Below, piece by piece: positions 36,634 to 46,012 of a DNA stretch of 64,000 bases. The notes under the pieces are model-generated. The model worked only from the letters and a program-made list of their open reading frames with translations, did not search any database and was not told the origin of the DNA. Both the position numbers and the translations under genes were made by a program. This stretch comes from Flammeovirga kamogawensis (lineage in GTDB: Bacteria > Bacteroidota > Bacteroidia > Cytophagales > Flammeovirgaceae), in the NCBI RefSeq assembly GCF_018736065.1, contig NZ_CP076128.1:3907001-3971000 (forward strand), given 5' to 3'. How positions within the stretch are numbered: the first letter of the stretch is position 1; every line of letters starts with the position of its first letter.

Positions 36634-36757
36634 TAGGGTTTGACCCTAAGTGAGTTCTTTCTTTCGATAGAATTAACTAAAGGATATTAAAAAATTATTT
36701 GGTTTAATTGTTAAGGGGAGAGAAACTCACTGTATTGCAGTGAGTTTCTTTTTTTTA
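36634..36757 (+). ncRNA. Candidate structured non-coding RNA with its own terminator
   Basis: No protein-coding frame is visible. A small hairpin (tagggt at 36634-36639 with accctA at 36643-36648) is followed by a long imperfect hairpin. In that, gtgagtt (36650-36656) can pair with aactcac (36724-36730), and the segment near 36670-36680 pairs with that near 36698-36709, leaving a large central bulge reminiscent of 6S RNA. It ends in a perfect 12-bp terminator stem (36721-36732 with 36738-36749) and eight or more T in plus orientation, although both flanking genes are on minus. An upstream TAAATTTTG (36621-36629) resembles a -7 element with one extra base. Identity with 6S RNA is speculation. 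Confidence 0.5.
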
Positions 36758-37615
36758 TAACGATAAATGATTGTAACTAAACTCCAAAGGATTCGGAAAA
36801 AGAAATGTAAATCCAATCTTCTTTTGAATTTTATCAGCATTTACAATTTTAAATGGAGGTGATTTTTCTGTTTCTACAAAAGTAGGAGAAATGTAATCTC
36901 CGTATTTAGCAGAATTTTCGTAGACAACTCTTTTAGGAGGGTGTTCAGGAGCAACAACATTAAAAACCTTATTCCAGCTATTATGATCGTTTACATCTAA
37001 TATATGTAGAATGGCACGAATCGCATCATCTCTAAATACATAGTTTACTGGAATTTCGGCATTATTTAAACCTTCTTTTCCATCAACATATTTTGCAGGA
37101 ATTCTGTCATAGCCCATTAATCCACCTAAACGTAAAATAGTAGCATCTAAATCAGTATTAATTCTCAGCACTTCTTCAGCAAGAACTACAGATTTTGCTC
37201 TAGGTTGTTCAGATGTTTCTGCATTTTCATTAATTTCTTTATTAGTATCCTTATAGACGCCTGTAGAACTCGTATAAATGACTTTATTTACAGGTAACTT
37301 CTCTATTTTATCTTTTATTACTTTTATTTGCTCGGCATGGTAAGTCATCATTTTGTGTTGCCCATATCGAGGAGCAATGCAAATAATTACTGCATCTGTA
37401 TCTAGTAAGTCAGTTAAACCTTTTGGGTCATTACATGTTGGGTCAAACCTTAAGTAGTATGGAGTAGCACCTAAATCGGAAATTAATGATAGTTTTTCTT
37501 CTGAACCTACGCTTGCTTTAACATCAAAACCATTCTTGATTAGTTTTTCTACAAGAGGTAGTCCTAGCCATCCGGCGCCAATAACACTTACTCTTTTTAT
37601 TTCTTTGAAATCCAT
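36755..37615 (-). CDS. NAD-dependent epimerase/dehydratase-family protein, YeeZ-like
   Basis: The 286-residue product is an atypical extended SDR: Rossmann motif VSVIGAGWLGLPLVEKL at residues 9-25, VIICIAPRYGQHK, then VIYTSSTGVYKDTN with the Ser/Tyr pattern expected at the active site, and LRLGGLMGYDR. The lysine of the YxxxK pair is not obvious, as in other YeeZ-like proteins. It is probably cytoplasmic with NAD(P) bound; the substrate is unknown. The T-run of the candidate RNA terminator reaches its stop codon. Confidence 0.82.
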   Translation of the reverse strand: MDFKEIKRVSVIGAGWLGLPLVEKLIKNGFDVKASVGSEEKLSLISDLGATPYYLRFDPTCNDPKGLTDLLDTDAVIICIAPRYGQHKMMTYHAEQIKVIKDKIEKLPVNKVIYTSSTGVYKDTNKEINENAETSEQPRAKSVVLAEEVLRINTDLDATILRLGGLMGYDRIPAKYVDGKEGLNNAEIPVNYVFRDDAIRAILHILDVNDHNSWNKVFNVVAPEHPPKRVVYENSAKYGDYISPTFVETEKSPPFKIVNADKIQKKIGFTFLFPNPLEFSYNHLSL

Positions 37616-37921
37616 AGTTTCGTTTAAGTTGGAGATTTTTCTTTCTAGAAAGATAGTTAATCTTCTCGAAATTTAGAATTTTGAATTAATTCTTCATGAT
37701 TTTCCTTAGTTGAAAGAAATCTAAAATAGTACATAAAACTACTTTAAGTAACGTTTAGTGAGTGCCGGTTCTTGATTTGGAACGTTGCAAAGTGTAATGT
37801 GAACGTTTTATTTTTTTGAGTGTCGATTATCATTTTTTTCATCAGTAAAATTGGAATATGAAATGAAAAGTGTGCTCCCAAAACACACAACTTCTGATTA
37901 ACTAATTTTTATGAATTGAAA
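37616..37921 (+). promoter_or_regulatory. Intergenic control region of the amylase gene with three phased AACGTT sites
   Basis: About 306 bp without a gene, between a minus-strand gene and the large amylase gene. The palindrome AACGTT occurs at 37750-37755, 37781-37786 and 37802-37807, with start-to-start distances of 31 and 21 bp, about three and two helical turns, so all would lie on one face of the DNA. A weak -7-like TAAAATTG is at 37846-37853. The sites could be operators for the AraC-type regulator encoded downstream; this is inference. Confidence 0.45.
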
Positions 37922-40900
37922 ATGGAAAAGAACTTTAAACTGTTACTCACTTCTGTCATCTCAATTCTATTTCTCCTACTTAATAATGTAGTAGCAATAG
38001 CGCAGGATGGAAAAGAAGTTTATTTGCAAGGGTTCCATTGGGAATCTGCAGACGCCGCCCAAAAAGATTGGTGGCAAGTATTATCATCAAAAGCTAATGC
38101 TATTAAAGCAGCCGATATTGATGGTATATGGTTACCACCATCTTCTGATGCAGGAGATAGAGCAGGTTACCTACCAAGAAAATGGTACGATCTAAATTCA
38201 AACTATGGTTCTGAAGAAGAACTTAGAGCATTAATATCTCAATTAAATAACCTTGGAGTTATTTCTATTGCAGATATAGTTATTAATCATCGTGTAGGTT
38301 GTACAGGTTGGGCAGATTTCTGTGAACCAGCTTTAGGATGTAATGGTATTACTTCTGACGATGAGGTAAACGAACAATTCCCTGGCGAGGGTTGTGGAGA
38401 TTTTGATACGGGTACTCCTTATAGTGCGGCAAGAGATATAAACCATAGAGATCCAGCTACTCAACAAGCAATTAAGGATTGGATGAATTGGTTAAAATCG
38501 GATGTCGGTTACTCTGGGTGGAGATATGACTTTGTACATGGTTTTGCTGCAAATTATTTTGCTGATTATAATAATGCAACATCTCCTTCTATTTCTATTG
38601 GAGAAAATTGGACAAGTAATACTCAAGATATTATCAATTGGGTGGATGGTGCTCAAGGTACTTCAACAGCATTTGATTTCCCTTTAAAGTTTGCTTTACA
38701 TAGTGCTGTTAATGGTAATTATGGAGTCTTGAACAATGGTGGTAAAATGCCGGGTGTAGCAGGAGTTTGGCCTCAGCAATCAGTGACTTTTTTAGAAAAT
38801 CATGATACAGAGCCAGTAAGACAAGGTGACCATCCAGGAAGTGCATTTCCTAATGATCCTGTTTCTAACTCTCAAGTACTACAAGGTTATGCTTACATAT
38901 TAACACATGCAGGTGCTCCTATGGTGTTTTATTCTCACCTTTTTGAATATGGTATTTATGATGAAATAGCACAAATGATTGCTATTCGTAAAGCGAATGA
39001 TATTTCTAAAACAAGTATTGTAAGTATTCAACAAGCAGATGGCAATGGTTATGCAGCAGTAGTTGATAATAAGCTTGCAATGACAATTGGTAATACAAGT
39101 TGGAGGCCAAATGGTTCAGGTTGGATTATTCAGGCAGAAGGTCCTGGCTATATGATTTGGGATAAAGGAGTAGGTGTTAATATTGCACCAGCTGTATCAA
39201 TAGATCCATCTGTCCAACAATCTGATAATCCAATTCAAGTAGCGTTATCAGTAATTGATGATAGAGATTCTAACTTACCTATTTATTATACTTTAGATGG
39301 AAGTACTCCTACAGTTAATTCTGCAGTTTATACAGTACCTTTTACTATTAATTCAACAACAACAGTAAAAGCTATATCATTTGATTCAGATAACAAATCG
39401 GGTCAGATAGAAAAGAAATTTTATATTGGAGAGCCACTTCCAGTAATGACTGTTTATGTACAAAAACAAGCGGGTTGGGGTACATTATATGCTCATCATT
39501 GGGCAGCGTCACCAATTGGATCTGTGGCAGATACAGAATGGCCTGGTATAGAAATGCAACGTGTAGAAGGAACTTCTAATTGGTATTCCGTAGAATTGCC
39601 AGGGGCAGAATCTTCAAATTTTGTTTTTCATGATTTTGCAACTAATCAAGATACAGATGTAATTATCTCTGGTACTTCTTGGTATTCGGATGGTGTTATT
39701 TCAACAACTTGTACTGGTGGAGATTGTCCTGATGATGTTGAAATTATTACACTTTCTTCTGATCAATCAGATGCTACATTTACAGCTTCTTTTTCTGTAA
39801 ATCTTTTATCAAATGATGGTGCATCGATTTATTATACAGTTGATGGAACAACTCCATCAACGTCATCTTCTCTTTATACTTCGACTTTAGTTTTTACAGA
39901 AACAACAGTTCTTAAGGCAAAAGCATTTAAAGGTAACCTATCTTCTGATGTGATTACTTCAACTTATACAAAAGAAGAAGAGGACAACAATAACAATAAT
40001 AATAACTCTGGACCAAGTGCTAAAAAAGATAATTTTACTTGGGATAATGCAACAGTTTATTTTACAATGACTGACCGTTTTTATGATGGAGATCCTTCGA
40101 ATAATAATGAATACAATAGAGGGAAAAACGGTAATGGAGATAATTATACAGACGACTCATCTGCAGGAGAATTCCATGGAGGTGATTTAAAAGGTATGAC
40201 AGCAAAACTTCGTGAAGGATATTTTGAGTCGATTGGTGTAAACGCAATTTGGATTACATCACCAGTAGAGCAAATGCACGGATGGGTTGGAGGAAGTTCT
40301 GATGGATCTTTCCGTCATTATGGATACCATGGTTATTATGCATTAGATTGGTCAGAACTTGATCGTAACATGGGTACGGAAGCTGATTTTCAGGAATTTA
40401 TTGATGAAGCTCACTCAAGAGGAATCCGTATTGTAGTAGATGTTGTAATGAACCATACGGGTTATGCAACTATGCAAGATATGGAAGAATTTGGTTATGG
40501 TACTGTAGATCCATCTTGGAGAGCGTGGCAACCATCAGGAGCTGATTCTTGGCATTCATACCACGAAAAATTTGTAGATTATTCTTCTGGTGGAACATGG
40601 ATTTCTAAATATTGGGGTCCAGATTGGATGCGTCATCCAGATGTAGCTGGGTACGATGCTTGTTCTTCTGGAGGAGGAATTGATAATTGCGTAGGTTTCT
40701 TACCAGATTTAAAAACAGAAGATTTAGCGCCTGTTGGTATTCCTCCTATTCTTGTTACAAAGTGGTCGCAAGAAGGGAAATTGGCAGAGAAAACAGCTGA
40801 ATTAGATGCGTTCTTTAATGAAACAGGTTTACCTAGAGTTGTATCAAACTATATGATATTCTGGCTTACTGATTGGGTAAGAAAATATGGAATCGATGGT

Positions 40901-43900
40901 TTTAGAATAGATACAGCAAAACATGTTGAAATGGAGCGTTGGGCTCGTTTAAAACAATATGCAATTGCAGCTTTATCAGCTTGGAAACAAGAGAATCCAT
41001 CAAAAGCAATGGACAATAAAGAGTTCTGGATGACTGCAGAAGTTTGGGGACATGGTAAGAATAAGTCGAACTATCATACTGATGGTAACTTTAATTCAGT
41101 AATCAATTTTAACCTTAAAAATGATGCTCGTGTTGCAAGCAGAGATGCAAGTTCTTTAGAATCATTGTATTCAGAATATGCAACCATTAATGATGATCCT
41201 ACATGGAACTCATTAAGTTATTTATCATCTCATGATGTTGTTCCATTATTTGATCGTAACTCTTTACATGCGGCAGCACCAGGTTTCTTGTTATTACCAG
41301 GTGGTATTCAAATTTTCTACGGAGATGAAACAGGAAGACCGGAAGGGAATTGGAGTGATGCGGAACAAAATACTCGTTCTGAAATGAACTGGGGTAGCTT
41401 TAACACAGCTCAGCATGATGTATGGAAAAAGTTAGGTACTTTCCGTAGAGATCACCCGTCTGTTGGTGCTGGTTCTCATAAACAAATAGGAACTGCTCCT
41501 TATACTTTTGTACGTGATTATAATAATCCAACAGAACAACTTTCTGATAGAGTTATTGTAGCGGTAGGTGCACAAGGAAATGTTACTTTTGACGTAGCAG
41601 ATTATTACCCTAATGGAGATACAATTATTGATCATTATACGGGTGCAATGGATATTGTTGAAAATGGATCGGTAACATTTACTGCAGATGCAGAAGGTAT
41701 TGTTTTATTATATGATAAAAACTACACTTACGTATCTCGTCCAATTGTAAATATCTCACCAGATACACAATATGATGAAACGTCAATTACAGTTTCGATT
41801 TCAGCAATTGATGCAGAAGATTCTAATGTAGTCACTTATTACACTACTAATGATAGCGATAATAAAGAGGACTACCTTACTTGGGATGTTTATACAGGTC
41901 CTTTTGATTTAATTCAATCAGCAACAGTTAGAGCAGTAGCAGTAAATTCATCAGGACGTACAGGCACTGCAGAGAAAAAATACGCCGTGGGTCAGATTGA
42001 CCCTATCAACATTTACTTCTACAAACCTGCAGATTGGGGTAGTGCTAATATGCATCATTATGATGCTGTTCCTGTTGGCAGTACTGAAGATACCGCTTGG
42101 CCGGGTATTACCATGACCGATGTTGGAAATGGATGGTACCATGCAACTGTAACTGCATTATCTACAGGGATTGTATTTACAGATAATGGTGGAGCTCAAT
42201 CAGATGATTTATCAAGAACTCAAGATGGGTGGTATAAAGATGGAAGTTGGTCAAATAGTTGCCCTGGCAATTGCCCTGGACCAATGGTACCTACAGTAGC
42301 TATCTCTCCAGAAAGTAAAAACTTTCCTACAGGGTCAGGAAATGTTACTATTTCTGCAACTCAAGATGGCGTTATCTACTATACAACAGATGGAACTACA
42401 CCATCGAGTTCATCATTAGAATATACAGGAATAATAGCTATTAATGGTAATGAAGGAGAAACAGTAACTGTAAAAGCAATAGCTTATAATGCAGAAGGAT
42501 CTTCTGATATTATCACCGAAGAGTTTACGTTTAATCCTATTCAAACATTTACAATCTACGTAAAAAATTATAGCCATGTTTATTATTGGAACGTAGAAGC
42601 AAACGGCACAATTACAGCACCTAATCCAGTAACATGGCCAGGTGTAGCATTACAATCTGCACCTGAAGTTGGCACAGGATGGATGAAGTATGAAGTTGAA
42701 GGTGGTACTTGTGCAAATGTTATTTTTACAAATAGCGGAGCTGGAAAAACTGGAGACTTATCAACTTGTGGTAACGAAGGTTTAGGTTATGATAATGGTG
42801 CTTGGGTTGAAATTGGTGATGATGAAGTTGCTCCAACAATTGGAATGACTCCAGATAGTGGTATTTATGATGGACGTGTAGCGATTACTATCACAGCATC
42901 TGACACTAGAGATAATGCACCATTAGTATATTATACAACTGATGGGTCTACACCAACTACAGCATCCATGTCTGCAGTAACAACTGTATCTTTCGAATTA
43001 ACTGATTTGGGAGACCATACAGTAAAAGCAATCTCAGTTGATGCTTCAGGGAATACTTCAGCAGTAATATCAAAAACATTTACTGTAAATGAAGTAATTG
43101 GAGGTTTTAGGGTATATTTTCAAGGAGCAAGTAACCCGTTAATTCATTATTGGGGTGTAACTCCAGTTGGAGCTATCTCGAGTACAACATGGCCAGGTGT
43201 AGCACTTACAGAAAGTGAAAATGGATGGTGGTACTTCGAGTTTCCATCGAATGTAACTGCAACTAATTTATTATTTCATTCTACTTCAGGTTATAAATCA
43301 GCTGATTTGACAAGAGATAGAGACGGATGGTTTAAGAATGGACAATGGTATGATGAGGAGCCTCCTCAGCCAGAAGGATTAACTGTTCATTTTAAATCTT
43401 CTTGGGGAAATAGTACAAGGATTCATTATTGGAATACATCAAATGGAACCTCATCTACATGGCCTGGAGTTGCAATGATAGATGATGGAAATGGATGGTA
43501 TTCTTATACAATAAATGGTGCTGCTTCTGCAAGTTTATTATTCCATAATGGTTCTGGGCAGCAAACAGGAGATTTATCTAGAAATCAAGAAGGATGGTAC
43601 AAAGATGGACAATGGTATGCTACTAATCCAGAAAATAGTGGAGCAAGAACATTTAATTTAGAAGATAAACTTGCTTTATCTGTAAAATTATATCCAACAA
43701 TAGTTACACATAAAGCAACTTTAGATGTTGTAATAACAGAAGATAATACAAATGCTCTTGTTAAGATATTTGATTTACAAGGAAGACAAGTGATTCCATC
43801 TGTAGAACAACTTTTACCTCAAGGTAATAACCAATTAGAACTGAATACGAATGACTTACCTAGTGGTATTCATTTAGTACAAATTCAGATAGGTTCGTAC

Positions 43901-43930
43901 TTAGAAGTAAAGCGAATACTTAAAAAATAA
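37922..43930 (+). CDS. Secreted bifunctional alpha-amylase: two GH13 domains, five CBM26-like modules, T9SS sorting tail
   Basis: I use the ATG at 37922 (2002 residues); a TTG two codons upstream is less likely. Domain order, approximate: signal peptide 1-28; GH13 domain 29-415 with GWRYD (Asp203), IGENW (Glu228) and ENHD (Asp295); chitobiase-C/FN3-like repeat 421-503; CBM26-like module 509-593; repeat 603-685; acidic Asn-rich linker; second GH13 domain 703-1267, closer to the MalS type, with GFRID (Asp997), TAEVWG (Glu1040) and SSHD (Asp1105). Then alternating repeats and CBM26-like modules to about 1903, five of each in total; T9SS type A sorting domain about 1910-2002. It would hydrolyse starch or glycogen outside the cell, probably cell-surface attached. 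Confidence 0.93.
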   Translation: MEKNFKLLLTSVISILFLLLNNVVAIAQDGKEVYLQGFHWESADAAQKDWWQVLSSKANAIKAADIDGIWLPPSSDAGDRAGYLPRKWYDLNSNYGSEEELRALISQLNNLGVISIADIVINHRVGCTGWADFCEPALGCNGITSDDEVNEQFPGEGCGDFDTGTPYSAARDINHRDPATQQAIKDWMNWLKSDVGYSGWRYDFVHGFAANYFADYNNATSPSISIGENWTSNTQDIINWVDGAQGTSTAFDFPLKFALHSAVNGNYGVLNNGGKMPGVAGVWPQQSVTFLENHDTEPVRQGDHPGSAFPNDPVSNSQVLQGYAYILTHAGAPMVFYSHLFEYGIYDEIAQMIAIRKANDISKTSIVSIQQADGNGYAAVVDNKLAMTIGNTSWRPNGSGWIIQAEGPGYMIWDKGVGVNIAPAVSIDPSVQQSDNPIQVALSVIDDRDSNLPIYYTLDGSTPTVNSAVYTVPFTINSTTTVKAISFDSDNKSGQIEKKFYIGEPLPVMTVYVQKQAGWGTLYAHHWAASPIGSVADTEWPGIEMQRVEGTSNWYSVELPGAESSNFVFHDFATNQDTDVIISGTSWYSDGVISTTCTGGDCPDDVEIITLSSDQSDATFTASFSVNLLSNDGASIYYTVDGTTPSTSSSLYTSTLVFTETTVLKAKAFKGNLSSDVITSTYTKEEEDNNNNNNNSGPSAKKDNFTWDNATVYFTMTDRFYDGDPSNNNEYNRGKNGNGDNYTDDSSAGEFHGGDLKGMTAKLREGYFESIGVNAIWITSPVEQMHGWVGGSSDGSFRHYGYHGYYALDWSELDRNMGTEADFQEFIDEAHSRGIRIVVDVVMNHTGYATMQDMEEFGYGTVDPSWRAWQPSGADSWHSYHEKFVDYSSGGTWISKYWGPDWMRHPDVAGYDACSSGGGIDNCVGFLPDLKTEDLAPVGIPPILVTKWSQEGKLAEKTAELDAFFNETGLPRVVSNYMIFWLTDWVRKYGIDGFRIDTAKHVEMERWARLKQYAIAALSAWKQENPSKAMDNKEFWMTAEVWGHGKNKSNYHTDGNFNSVINFNLKNDARVASRDASSLESLYSEYATINDDPTWNSLSYLSSHDVVPLFDRNSLHAAAPGFLLLPGGIQIFYGDETGRPEGNWSDAEQNTRSEMNWGSFNTAQHDVWKKLGTFRRDHPSVGAGSHKQIGTAPYTFVRDYNNPTEQLSDRVIVAVGAQGNVTFDVADYYPNGDTIIDHYTGAMDIVENGSVTFTADAEGIVLLYDKNYTYVSRPIVNISPDTQYDETSITVSISAIDAEDSNVVTYYTTNDSDNKEDYLTWDVYTGPFDLIQSATVRAVAVNSSGRTGTAEKKYAVGQIDPINIYFYKPADWGSANMHHYDAVPVGSTEDTAWPGITMTDVGNGWYHATVTALSTGIVFTDNGGAQSDDLSRTQDGWYKDGSWSNSCPGNCPGPMVPTVAISPESKNFPTGSGNVTISATQDGVIYYTTDGTTPSSSSLEYTGIIAINGNEGETVTVKAIAYNAEGSSDIITEEFTFNPIQTFTIYVKNYSHVYYWNVEANGTITAPNPVTWPGVALQSAPEVGTGWMKYEVEGGTCANVIFTNSGAGKTGDLSTCGNEGLGYDNGAWVEIGDDEVAPTIGMTPDSGIYDGRVAITITASDTRDNAPLVYYTTDGSTPTTASMSAVTTVSFELTDLGDHTVKAISVDASGNTSAVISKTFTVNEVIGGFRVYFQGASNPLIHYWGVTPVGAISSTTWPGVALTESENGWWYFEFPSNVTATNLLFHSTSGYKSADLTRDRDGWFKNGQWYDEEPPQPEGLTVHFKSSWGNSTRIHYWNTSNGTSSTWPGVAMIDDGNGWYSYTINGAASASLLFHNGSGQQTGDLSRNQEGWYKDGQWYATNPENSGARTFNLEDKLALSVKLYPTIVTHKATLDVVITEDNTNALVKIFDLQGRQVIPSVEQLLPQGNNQLELNTNDLPSGIHLVQIQIGSYLEVKRILKK

Positions 43931-43942
43931 GAATTGTAATTT

Positions 43943-43980
43943 AAAGAGCACAGAGAGTATCTTTCTGTGCTCTTTTTTTT
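43943..43980 (+). terminator. Terminator of the amylase gene
   Basis: Fifteen-bp stem (43943-43957 with 43961-43975, one G-U pair), 3-nt loop and a run of eight T. It separates the amylase gene from the downstream regulator gene, so the regulator has its own promoter. Confidence 0.88.
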
Positions 43981-44113: not shown

Positions 44114-46012
44114 ATGTCTATGAATAATAAAATTACTATTCTATTTATTTTTTCTCTGTGTACTTTTTTTACAAATTACAATTCGCTCGCTCAAACAGAT
44201 TCTATTACATTCACTATAAAGGAATATCCTGTTTATACACCAAAAACAGCAGCTATCTATTTAGTGACATCGTTAAATGAATGGGCACCAAATGATCCAA
44301 ATTTTCAGTTAAAGAAAAATGGTAAAGAATATTATATACGTTTACCAAAACAAACAGAAAGCTTTCAGTATAAATTTACCAGAGGTAATTGGAAAAGTGT
44401 TGAAGGCAATGATGTTGGTGAAATAAAATCTAATAGAGTTTATGATGCTTCAAGCCCAAACGAAGTTGATATTAAGATTTTATCATGGCAAGATAAAGCA
44501 AAACAATTCTTAAATAGAGTACAACTAATAGTTCAAGATGTACCAGAAGAAACTCCTTATGATGCAACTTTATTTGTTACTGGAGATTTTAATAATTGGA
44601 GTACAAATGATGTTGAAAGTAAATTAAATAAACATCCTGATGGTAATTACTATATCACATTGCCAATAGGAGTTCAAAAATTTAATTATAAAATAACAAG
44701 AGGTTCTTGGGAGTCTGTCGAAGGAAGGGAAAATGGTCGAGCTATTGAGAATAGAGTTTATGATGTAAACGTAGATGGTTGGAAAAAAGAAATTAAGGTA
44801 AGTAGTTGGGAAGATCTTTCAGGGAATACGATGACTCCTTATATGTTTTTACTATTACTTGGAGCGTTTCAAGGTATAGTTTTAATACTTTCTATTTTTA
44901 GTATTCAAGACAATAACCGTCAAGCAAATTTAATATTGATGGGGTTGATTTTCTTGACATCAATAGCATTAATGTCAAGAGTGGCAATGTACTATAGAGA
45001 TATGTTCCATGAGTTTCCTAAAGTATATTTAGTACCAGAATTATTACTTTTCCTATATAGTCCATTATTTTATTTCTACATCAAGCAATTAACAGATTCA
45101 GAATCTGCACGTAAAGATCTCTTTTATAGGTTTGTTCCTTTTGGAATGCAAATAATTACCTATATACCTTTGTTGGCAATGCCAAATGAAGAATTTATAA
45201 ACGGTGTTTTAGATAAAGAATTTAATTGGTTATTTAATCTTTTTGGAGGTTTAGGCTTGCTCTTTAATATCTATTATTGGTGGAAATGTAAGCAAGTATT
45301 AGATCGTCAGAAAGTAAATAATGTAGAAGTCCTATCAGAAGAAAGAAACTTAAATTATTTGAGCGGTGTAATGGCTGTTTATGCCGGTTGTTTACTTATT
45401 TGGGGCATGTTATATATAGTAGGTAGTGCTCATTATTTATTTGATTATAACCCTCAAAATTTAATAGAATTTTTATCGGATACATTATGGTTTATGATTG
45501 CAAGTATTTCTTTTGTTATGGGATACTATGCAATGAATCAACCTGAAATATTACGTATATCGGAAGTGATTAATTTCCCTGATAATATTCAAAGTGCAGT
45601 AATAAGTTCTGAGAAAGTAGAGCAAGAAGTAGTTAAAGAGTTATCATCAGATCTTATTGCAATAAAAAATGATCTAGCAATTAAAATGGGTGAGGAACGA
45701 CTTTATGAAAATGCTCGTTTAACATTACCTGATTTAGCAAAAATATTAGAAACAAATACGCATGATTTATCCAAAGTAATTAACGATGGATACAAGAAAA
45801 ACTTTTATGACTTTGTAAATTCCTATAGGGTGGAAGCGTTTGTAGATGCAGTAAATGGAGATGTAGATAACGAGCTGACTTACTTAGGGCATGCATATAA
45901 TGTAGGCTTTAATTCTAAAACAGCCTTTAATAGAGCGTTCAAAAAAGAGACGTCAAAAACACCAACACAGTATTTTTCAATGCTAAAAACACTCACAGAG
46001 GTCTCAAAATGA
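44114..46012 (+). CDS. Membrane-spanning AraC-family regulator with two periplasmic starch-binding-like domains
   Basis: The frame opens at a TTG at 44027, but ATG codons at 44114 and 44120 directly precede a signal peptide ending NSLAQ, so I start at 44114 (632 residues). Residues 31-125 and 135-233 are two related CBM20/E-set-like domains sharing TRGNWKSVEG and TRGSWESVEG and the ending NRVYD, evidence of internal duplication. Seven hydrophobic helices span about 243-475. The C-terminal 515-625 is an AraC-type double helix-turn-helix (DLAKILETNTHDLSKVIN, GFNSKTAFNRAFKKETSKTPTQY). This is a one-component sensor: oligosaccharide outside, DNA inside. It follows the amylase gene and most likely controls it; the target is inferred. 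Confidence 0.88.
   Translation: MSMNNKITILFIFSLCTFFTNYNSLAQTDSITFTIKEYPVYTPKTAAIYLVTSLNEWAPNDPNFQLKKNGKEYYIRLPKQTESFQYKFTRGNWKSVEGNDVGEIKSNRVYDASSPNEVDIKILSWQDKAKQFLNRVQLIVQDVPEETPYDATLFVTGDFNNWSTNDVESKLNKHPDGNYYITLPIGVQKFNYKITRGSWESVEGRENGRAIENRVYDVNVDGWKKEIKVSSWEDLSGNTMTPYMFLLLLGAFQGIVLILSIFSIQDNNRQANLILMGLIFLTSIALMSRVAMYYRDMFHEFPKVYLVPELLLFLYSPLFYFYIKQLTDSESARKDLFYRFVPFGMQIITYIPLLAMPNEEFINGVLDKEFNWLFNLFGGLGLLFNIYYWWKCKQVLDRQKVNNVEVLSEERNLNYLSGVMAVYAGCLLIWGMLYIVGSAHYLFDYNPQNLIEFLSDTLWFMIASISFVMGYYAMNQPEILRISEVINFPDNIQSAVISSEKVEQEVVKELSSDLIAIKNDLAIKMGEERLYENARLTLPDLAKILETNTHDLSKVINDGYKKNFYDFVNSYRVEAFVDAVNGDVDNELTYLGHAYNVGFNSKTAFNRAFKKETSKTPTQYFSMLKTLTEVSK

Follow-up and report, generated by a model that had tools for sequence, protein, structure and literature searches.

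A predicted one-chain membrane regulator with tandem alpha-glucan-binding-type domains, seven transmembrane helices and an AraC-type DNA-binding domain, encoded near starch genes in Flammeovirga and related bacteria

A protein of 632 amino acids (counted from the ATG start of its open reading frame), encoded in a stretch of 64,000 nucleotides of the Flammeovirga kamogawensis genome that we refer to as the window, is probably a one-component inner-membrane maltodextrin sensor that directly activates starch genes, as judged from sequence comparisons and predicted structures. The genome (G000; 6.97 Mb in 4 contigs) holds the full-length regulator as a single copy, and five further matches cover its C-terminal part only. 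The first-pass annotation of this DNA had suggested a direct transmembrane regulator from polysaccharide to DNA, acting on the adjacent amylase. The domain types, the topology, the genomic partners and a conserved upstream element all agree with a regulator of this kind, although the amylase is not always adjacent and the predicted regulon is wider than that one gene. The features discussed below are collected in Table 1.

Table 1. Predicted features of the regulator and of the amylase locus (positions in the window)
Feature	Position	Strand	Remarks
Putative operator, distal element GTGCC-N12-GGAACGT	37762..37785	+	conserved upstream of orthologous amylases
Proximal half-site GAGTGTCGATT	37818..37828	+	unlike the TGGNRCGA form seen in most relatives
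-7-like promoter box TAAAATTG	37846..37853	+	one mismatch to TANNTTTG; lies 22 nt from the proximal half-site, counted from its CG
Secreted amylase	37916..43930	+	GH13 catalytic regions (Pfam Alpha-amylase, Alpha-amyl_C2), five CBM26 stretches, C-terminal Por_Secre_tail; presumed target
Intrinsic-terminator-like hairpin	43943..43975	+	between amylase and regulator
Regulator gene	44114..46012	+	632 aa; signal peptide, two alpha-glucan-binding-type domains, seven transmembrane helices, AraC-type HTH
Signal peptide, residues 1-27	44114..44194	+	hydrophobic segment 9-27; model helix 6-24; cleavage site inferred from sequence
Periplasmic domain 1, residues 30-128	44201..44497	+	AMPK/CBM48/X25 type; W57, K87, W93
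Periplasmic domain 2, residues 136-236	44519..44821	+	AMPK/CBM48/X25 type; W162, K193, W199
Seven transmembrane helices, residues 242-475	44837..45538	+	predicted GPCR/rhodopsin-like bundle
Low-confidence linker, residues about 481-511	45554..45646	+	probably flexible; pLDDT <50 at 485-507
AraC-type helix-turn-helix DNA-binding domain, residues 541-621	45734..45976	+	

The signal peptide is followed by two related beta-sandwich domains, as had been noted from the motifs TRGNWKSVEG and TRGSWESVEG, which are indeed found at residues 89-98 and 195-204 of the translation. Alignment of family profiles with hhalign (probability 100, E 1.9e-48, 37% identity) shows the two domains to be homologous. 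Describing them as CBM20/E-set-like, as was done earlier, gives the correct kind of domain, and AMPK/CBM48/X25 are the named families closest to them. The regulator itself scores below the Pfam cut-off for each of these (AMPK1_CBM 16.3, CBM_48 15.1 and X25 12.4 bits), although other members of its family do match at E<=0.01 (X25 in 24 of 42, CBM_48 and AMPK1_CBM each in 13 of 42, and CBM53 in 4 of 42). When a profile built from 44 copies of the N-terminal domain is run against the PDB, the amylase 8dge/8dl1 is matched with a whole-sequence E of 2e-6 that comes from several weak stretches, and there are matches to a branching enzyme (E 0.028) and, weakly, to the CBMs of AMPK-beta (E 0.07 to 0.8). 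That amylase is named BoGH13ASus in the Foldseek list, where it is among the first matches (E 4.6e-4) together with branching enzymes, and where the CBM20 of STBD1 with maltotetraose stands at rank 21. The glycogen-binding domain of AMPK-beta, a subunit of a eukaryotic kinase and not a membrane receptor, offers a parallel, as it is a related glucan-binding domain that serves as a sensor and carries the same Trp/Lys set. In what is a weak sequence match, W162, K193 and W199 align with W100, K126 and W133 of AMPK-beta (N150 of AMPK is unmapped, N213 being a guess at its counterpart), the equivalents in the first domain are W57, K87 and W93, and all six residues are 95-100% conserved among 42 sequences. 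The three AMPK-beta residues contact beta-cyclodextrin and are required for glycogen binding according to the parts of two papers used here (PMC2642990, PMC4032982). The N-terminal domains are related to alpha-glucan-binding domains of the AMPK/CBM48/X25 type, and sugar binding by them is predicted. A CBM20-type domain related to those of the regulator (profile E 5e-10) is also seen at the N-terminus of a predicted lipoprotein esterase in the window (PF00756; 5822-6982, minus strand; 'lipoprotein' is read from sequence). At locus L051 (8278-9318, in genome G016) a 346-residue protein with three copies of the domain has as neighbours a predicted sensor kinase and a response regulator, both again named from sequence, and is perhaps a separated sensor.

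Seven hydrophobic helices had been described, and both family-averaged hydropathy and the AlphaFold2 model agree with this number. Hydropathy exceeds 0.6 at residues 242-260, 276-293, 305-323, 341-357, 370-387, 419-444 and 454-473 (some of the seven segments split if the threshold is set at 0.9), and the full-length model (mean pLDDT 82, pTM 0.57) has seven helices of 15-37 residues each over the hydrophobic region. With the signal peptide cleaved and seven helices following, the N-terminal domains would be periplasmic and the helix-turn-helix cytoplasmic; this N-out/C-in arrangement is matched by the content of lysine and arginine, which is higher in loops 1, 3 and 5 than in loops 2, 4 and 6 in all 42 aligned sequences (mean 9.6 vs 3.8). 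A model of the transmembrane domain alone was made from 60 sequences, 18 of them from relatives that lack the N-terminal domains (E-set-less relatives), and has a pTM of 0.83. When it is compared with structures by VIA, the 50 matches listed are all GPCRs, of several classes (Z 15.2-16.7, rmsd 3.7-4.5), the best of them with Z 16.7 and rmsd 3.9 over 220 residues, and unrelated helical models reach a best Z of about 14; that no other fold is among these listed matches carries no weight. The Foldseek list, in which the best E is 0.009, includes microbial rhodopsins. Because sequence identity to the structural matches is 6-12%, and in view of the Foldseek E and the Z background, we limit the claim to a similar arrangement of helices, so that the GPCR/rhodopsin-like fold of the modelled bundle is suggestive only.

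The AraC-type helix-turn-helix expected at the C-terminus is found there as an HTH_18 match above the Pfam cut-off (35.7 vs 33.6 bits, E 1.1e-8); all 42 aligned family members match it at E<=0.01, and it is the best conserved part of the regulator family. It is joined to the membrane bundle through a low-confidence stretch (pLDDT <50 at 485-507), and a rigid mechanical link is therefore unlikely, which favours control by dimerisation or positioning over a rigid lever. No histidine kinase or receiver domain is seen among the Pfam matches of the regulator up to E 10, or among the 10 families matched by the 42 members at 0.01, and transmembrane helices and AraC-type helix-turn-helix in one chain with neither of these is the layout of a membrane-bound one-component AraC regulator.

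The same set of domains recurs in other genomes. Within the family to which the window belongs, at least one match at 1e-10 is found in 16 of 18 genomes, orthologs are present in 10 (G000 and nine others at 52-96% identity), and full-length relatives of 24-33% identity are likewise present in 10. At least 54 of 390 genomes of the order encode one or two of the N-terminal domains together with the seven helices and the helix-turn-helix, a lower bound for a sample that includes the family's 18 genomes and for which three candidates per genome were scored; by individual reading of the rows, 40 of these genomes have two-domain forms and 14 have one-domain forms. A wider count of 83 out of 390 takes in proteins that consist of the N-terminal domain only as well as 7TM-AraC proteins without it. 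In a class-wide sample there are 7 matches at 1e-60 in 395, three of them from another order. Two of these three genomes (G590 and G742) have no gene labelled GH13, SusC or SusD near the regulator; in G472, also of another order, the regulator precedes a GH13/CBM26 amylase.

The genes around these regulators provide the link to starch. GH13, SusC or SusD is encoded within five genes of 54 of the 61 domain-bearing regulators (GH13 at 39, SusC/D at 34) vs none of 18 E-set-less relatives (Fisher p 2e-12), where the 61 span five families of the order, do not count the window's own gene and are 62 loci minus L051 (three domains and no transmembrane bundle), and the controls are 18 of 23 E-set-less rows. 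The seven exceptions are L045, L059, L060, L061 (amylase elsewhere), L109, L120 and L123, with L120 and L123 standing on contigs of 5.0 and 7.5 kb. Among the orthologs, the regulator follows an amylase of roughly 2000 residues in six genomes (G000, G003, G005, G006, G010 and G017; in G017 the pair is kept and the other neighbours shown differ), and the orthologous amylase is elsewhere, not adjoining the regulator, in G004, G007, G008 and G009. In seven Flammeovirga paralogs and in G016 the regulator precedes a separate amylase of about 480 residues. In family f11 there is a SusC/SusD gene within five genes at 28 of 30 loci and GH13 at 16 of 30; these regulators typically precede susC-susD directly and, at six loci, come immediately behind a GH13 enzyme, and one locus contains by Pfam a SusC-type receptor, SusD, SusE/SusF and GH13. 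The regulator is beside GH13 genes at all five f13 loci and all four f19 loci. In the window, the terminator-like hairpin between amylase and regulator suggests that the two are transcribed separately.

In an alignment of the sequences that precede the ten orthologous amylases, GTRCC-N12-GGNACGT is followed by the half-site GGTGCGATT and then by a -7-like box, and the relocated amylases keep this element although the rest of their upstream region has diverged. Departures are seen in G017 (GTATC-N12-GACAC) and in the half-site of G000 and G006. In the window these parts (37762-37853) lie inside and just past the region 37740-37820 that the first-pass annotation had singled out. The exact pattern GTRCC-N12-GGNACGT, built from sites of the main amylase, gives 26 matches in nine genomes of the same genus, as against 7 for a reversed-pattern control: 9 precede the main amylase, 6 precede a second amylase whose sites were not used for the pattern, and 11 fall inside open reading frames, so that every one of the 15 outside open reading frames stands before an amylase. 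The lone exact match in G017 is one that lies inside an open reading frame, and the matches of G013 and G016 were left out of this inspection. The second amylase has about 960-980 residues, and its 6 exact matches come from five genomes, two of them overlapping in G005; the same layout is present upstream of it in all nine genomes aligned, with an inexact pattern in G000, G004, G006 and G010. Because these amylases are paralogous, the two promoters could have a common origin. The gene before the window's main-amylase site is divergent (36755-37615), and so is the one before the site of the second amylase in both G003 and G005; these sites are consequently not terminators of an upstream gene. 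A regulon wider than the adjacent amylase is predicted, as a second amylase carries the same element; in 4 of 10 ortholog genomes the amylase is elsewhere and has kept its element. The exact pattern also occurs in three genomes inside a coding region of 519 residues that looks by eye sulfatase-like (L182, L183 and L185); being coding, these matches are probably unrelated to the element.

The half-site TGGNRCGA recurs outside family f1, where it lies upstream of 22 of 26 susC genes, 8 of 239 other genes and none of 32 regulator genes (p 1e-21, a value that overstates independence, since the search pattern was widened post hoc and the f11 genomes share descent). The pattern, [TC]GG[TAG][AG]CGA, derives from Flammeovirga promoters, was given its G in the fourth place once the f11 susC sequences had been seen, and has controls taken from the same loci. 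Only 2 of 27 GH13 genes outside f1 have the half-site, none of them at f13 loci, and within f1 the pattern is found at 4 of 15 GH13, 1 of 2 SusC, 0 of 20 regulator and 1 of 176 other genes, the window's own site being unmatched. The sequence TANNTTTG is the consensus of Bacteroidota promoters, and it lies 22-23 nt beyond the half-site at 18 of the 22 susC half-sites; the spacing in the window is 22. By comparison, the box accompanies 6 of 23 half-sites at other genes and is absent from 17. In a separate extraction of proximal half-sites, L176 and L178 are represented by their distal site. These six, distinct from the counted susC sites, are at L096, where the gene is the GH13 gene itself, and at L094, L106, L117, L118 and L119, where it is an open reading frame near the regulator with susC within five genes; in such loci the boxed site seems to be that same promoter, preceding an additional gene or open reading frame. 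We regard the TGGNRCGA-type half-sites and the inverted pair as the putative operator of this regulator. It is unlikely that the element belongs to some other regulator and that the linkage reflects gene clustering only. Binding of the element by this protein is a prediction, element and regulator are apart in four genomes, and the genome has other AraC-type proteins, one of them encoded in G000 some 1.5 kb before the second amylase; against this, the half-site recurs at susC promoters beside the regulator in other families, and the open reading frames closest to the element of the second amylase are not the same in G003 and G005, so that the AraC gene in G000 does not look like a constant partner.

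A looser palindrome, GTRYC-N11..13-GRNAC, is found upstream of 17 of 42 GH13, 15 of 28 SusC, none of 52 regulator and 12 of 415 other genes, with a second half-site downstream of it in 13 of the 44 matched; some of the matches at other genes are divergent genes across the same sites (L043, L044 and L046). We do not rely on the counts at SusC genes and at the paralogs: many of these palindromes occupy the gap that separates the regulator from its neighbour, a T-run comes after some of them, and several of those in f11 and at the paralogs may be where transcription of the regulator gene ends. Upstream of the 480-residue amylases (L052-L058) there is strong conservation of GTRTC...GANAC and TTAGACGA, then TAA..TTG, which may be a variant of the amylase element layout, its palindrome possibly a terminator. 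G000 also has its own susCD/GH13 locus (L166/L171, C1:1297000-1326000), beside a LacI-type regulator (name read from sequence), where neither palindrome nor half-site was found upstream of the four GH13/SusC open reading frames tested.

In the mechanism that we propose, the secreted amylase would free maltodextrins that reach the periplasm and bind there to the tandem AMPK/CBM48/X25-type domains; maltodextrin in the periplasm is a likelier ligand than polymeric starch. The state of the seven-helix bundle, together with the flexible linker, would then change how the helix-turn-helix, perhaps as a dimer, meets its operator. In Flammeovirga amylase promoters it would bind one TGGNRCGA-type half-site near -33 and an inverted pair starting 57-59 nt further upstream, and so activate the amylase genes; in other families the target would be the susCDE/GH13 operon. 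We infer activation as opposed to repression, binding of the element by this protein, and the path of the signal across the membrane. Among the points that count against this model are that the regulator's own N-terminal domains fall below Pfam cut-offs, that the amylase is not adjacent in four genomes and that no palindrome or half-site is seen at the four tested open reading frames of the susCD/GH13 locus of G000. An activator seated near -33 would fit the constant distance between half-site and promoter box. A repressor released by maltodextrin could also act from the proximal half-site, as this lies near the presumed -33 region, where it could block; an AraC-type protein whose half-site adjoins -35/-33 is usually an activator, however, and we consider repression quite unlikely. 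SusR, the functional counterpart, is likewise an activator in the part of PMC3878776 used here. It is more improbable still that the N-terminal domains bind a partner (the amylase, a SusE-like or a periplasmic maltodextrin-binding protein) while starch genes are controlled by a ligand sensed elsewhere, for example in a pocket of a bundle that is predicted to resemble the GPCR/rhodopsin folds that hold a ligand inside, since, even though E-set-less relatives must sense something without these domains, both domains carry conserved Trp and Lys residues that correspond to the sugar site of AMPK-beta and only domain-bearing loci among those examined sit at starch genes.

The maltodextrin sensor proposed here can be set beside several known systems. 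The 7TMR-DISM receptors, considered for their comparable layout, combine a periplasmic beta-sandwich, seven helices and a cytoplasmic output. Membership of this group is rejected, as there is no PF07695 Pfam match in the regulator and hhalign of the 7TM profile (60 sequences) against six PF07695 domains of this genome, which holds 7 such matches above cut-off and 10 in all, gives a probability of 4.8%. A sensor like that of TfoS is not indicated either, as the Pfam matches of the regulator and its family include no Reg_prop/Y_Y_Y-type match, these being what we take to be the periplasmic sensor domains of hybrid two-component systems. TfoS of Vibrio is itself a membrane-bound AraC-family regulator, tied to chitin oligosaccharide sensing, whose periplasmic sensor has its relatives in hybrid two-component systems and which controls competence and chitinases, as described in the part of PMC7564644 used here. 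Hybrid two-component systems also join periplasmic sugar sensing to an AraC-type output at polysaccharide utilization loci (PULs; PMC3878776, in part). In Saccharophagus degradans, AraC regulators with 6-7 predicted transmembrane regions next to cellulase genes were predicted in 2008; four are tabulated, near cellulase, glucosidase or cellulose-binding genes, and detection of extracellular polysaccharide was proposed for them (PMC2386152). The part of that paper used here names no fused external sensor or operator for these proteins, which come from a gammaproteobacterium and concern cellulose, not starch.

SusR of Bacteroides is a membrane protein with a periplasmic sensor and a cytoplasmic DNA-binding part that activates starch genes on maltose or maltodextrin, according to the parts of two sources used here (PMC3878776, PMC11633381). 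Its architecture had been said to differ from that of the present protein, and this is upheld: the SusR C-terminal DNA-binding domain is described in the part of PMC3878776 used here as having no significant similarity to other known transcription factors, whereas that of our regulator is AraC-type and is accompanied by tandem CBM-like domains and seven helices, a separation made by description. With the AraC-type helix-turn-helix present, membership of the SusR group is rejected; the protein would work like SusR and belongs with the membrane-bound one-component AraC regulators. We found no described family with this exact fusion in the open-access literature, as had been supposed, nor any prior report there of the tandem glucan-binding ectodomain, the starch linkage or the operator. 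The sensor with its two glucan-binding domains, the regulon of starch genes and the operator all seem to be new.

Three phylum-specific kinds of PUL regulator are described in Bacteroidota, namely SusR-like proteins, hybrid two-component systems and ECF sigma/anti-sigma pairs (PMC3878776 and PMC10316084, in the parts used here). More tentatively, a fourth class is possible in which a GPCR/rhodopsin-like bundle with an AMPK-type ectodomain is itself the transcription factor, so that a ligand outside the membrane would directly drive an AraC helix-turn-helix at a conserved operator before starch genes, in the Flammeovirga order and beyond. If true, this would be another widespread kind of PUL regulator, with a predicted ligand, regulon and operator open to immediate testing, in which one chain must carry the signal through seven helices to DNA, and it might serve as a modular scaffold for maltodextrin biosensors. 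Judging from the E-set-less relatives, the 7TM-AraC core seems able to take different sensors. These relatives (L134-L151) are a broad set in the order, of 367-418 residues; three of the loci (L137, L139 and L145) have, by eye, a similar-looking upstream gene of 230-241 residues.
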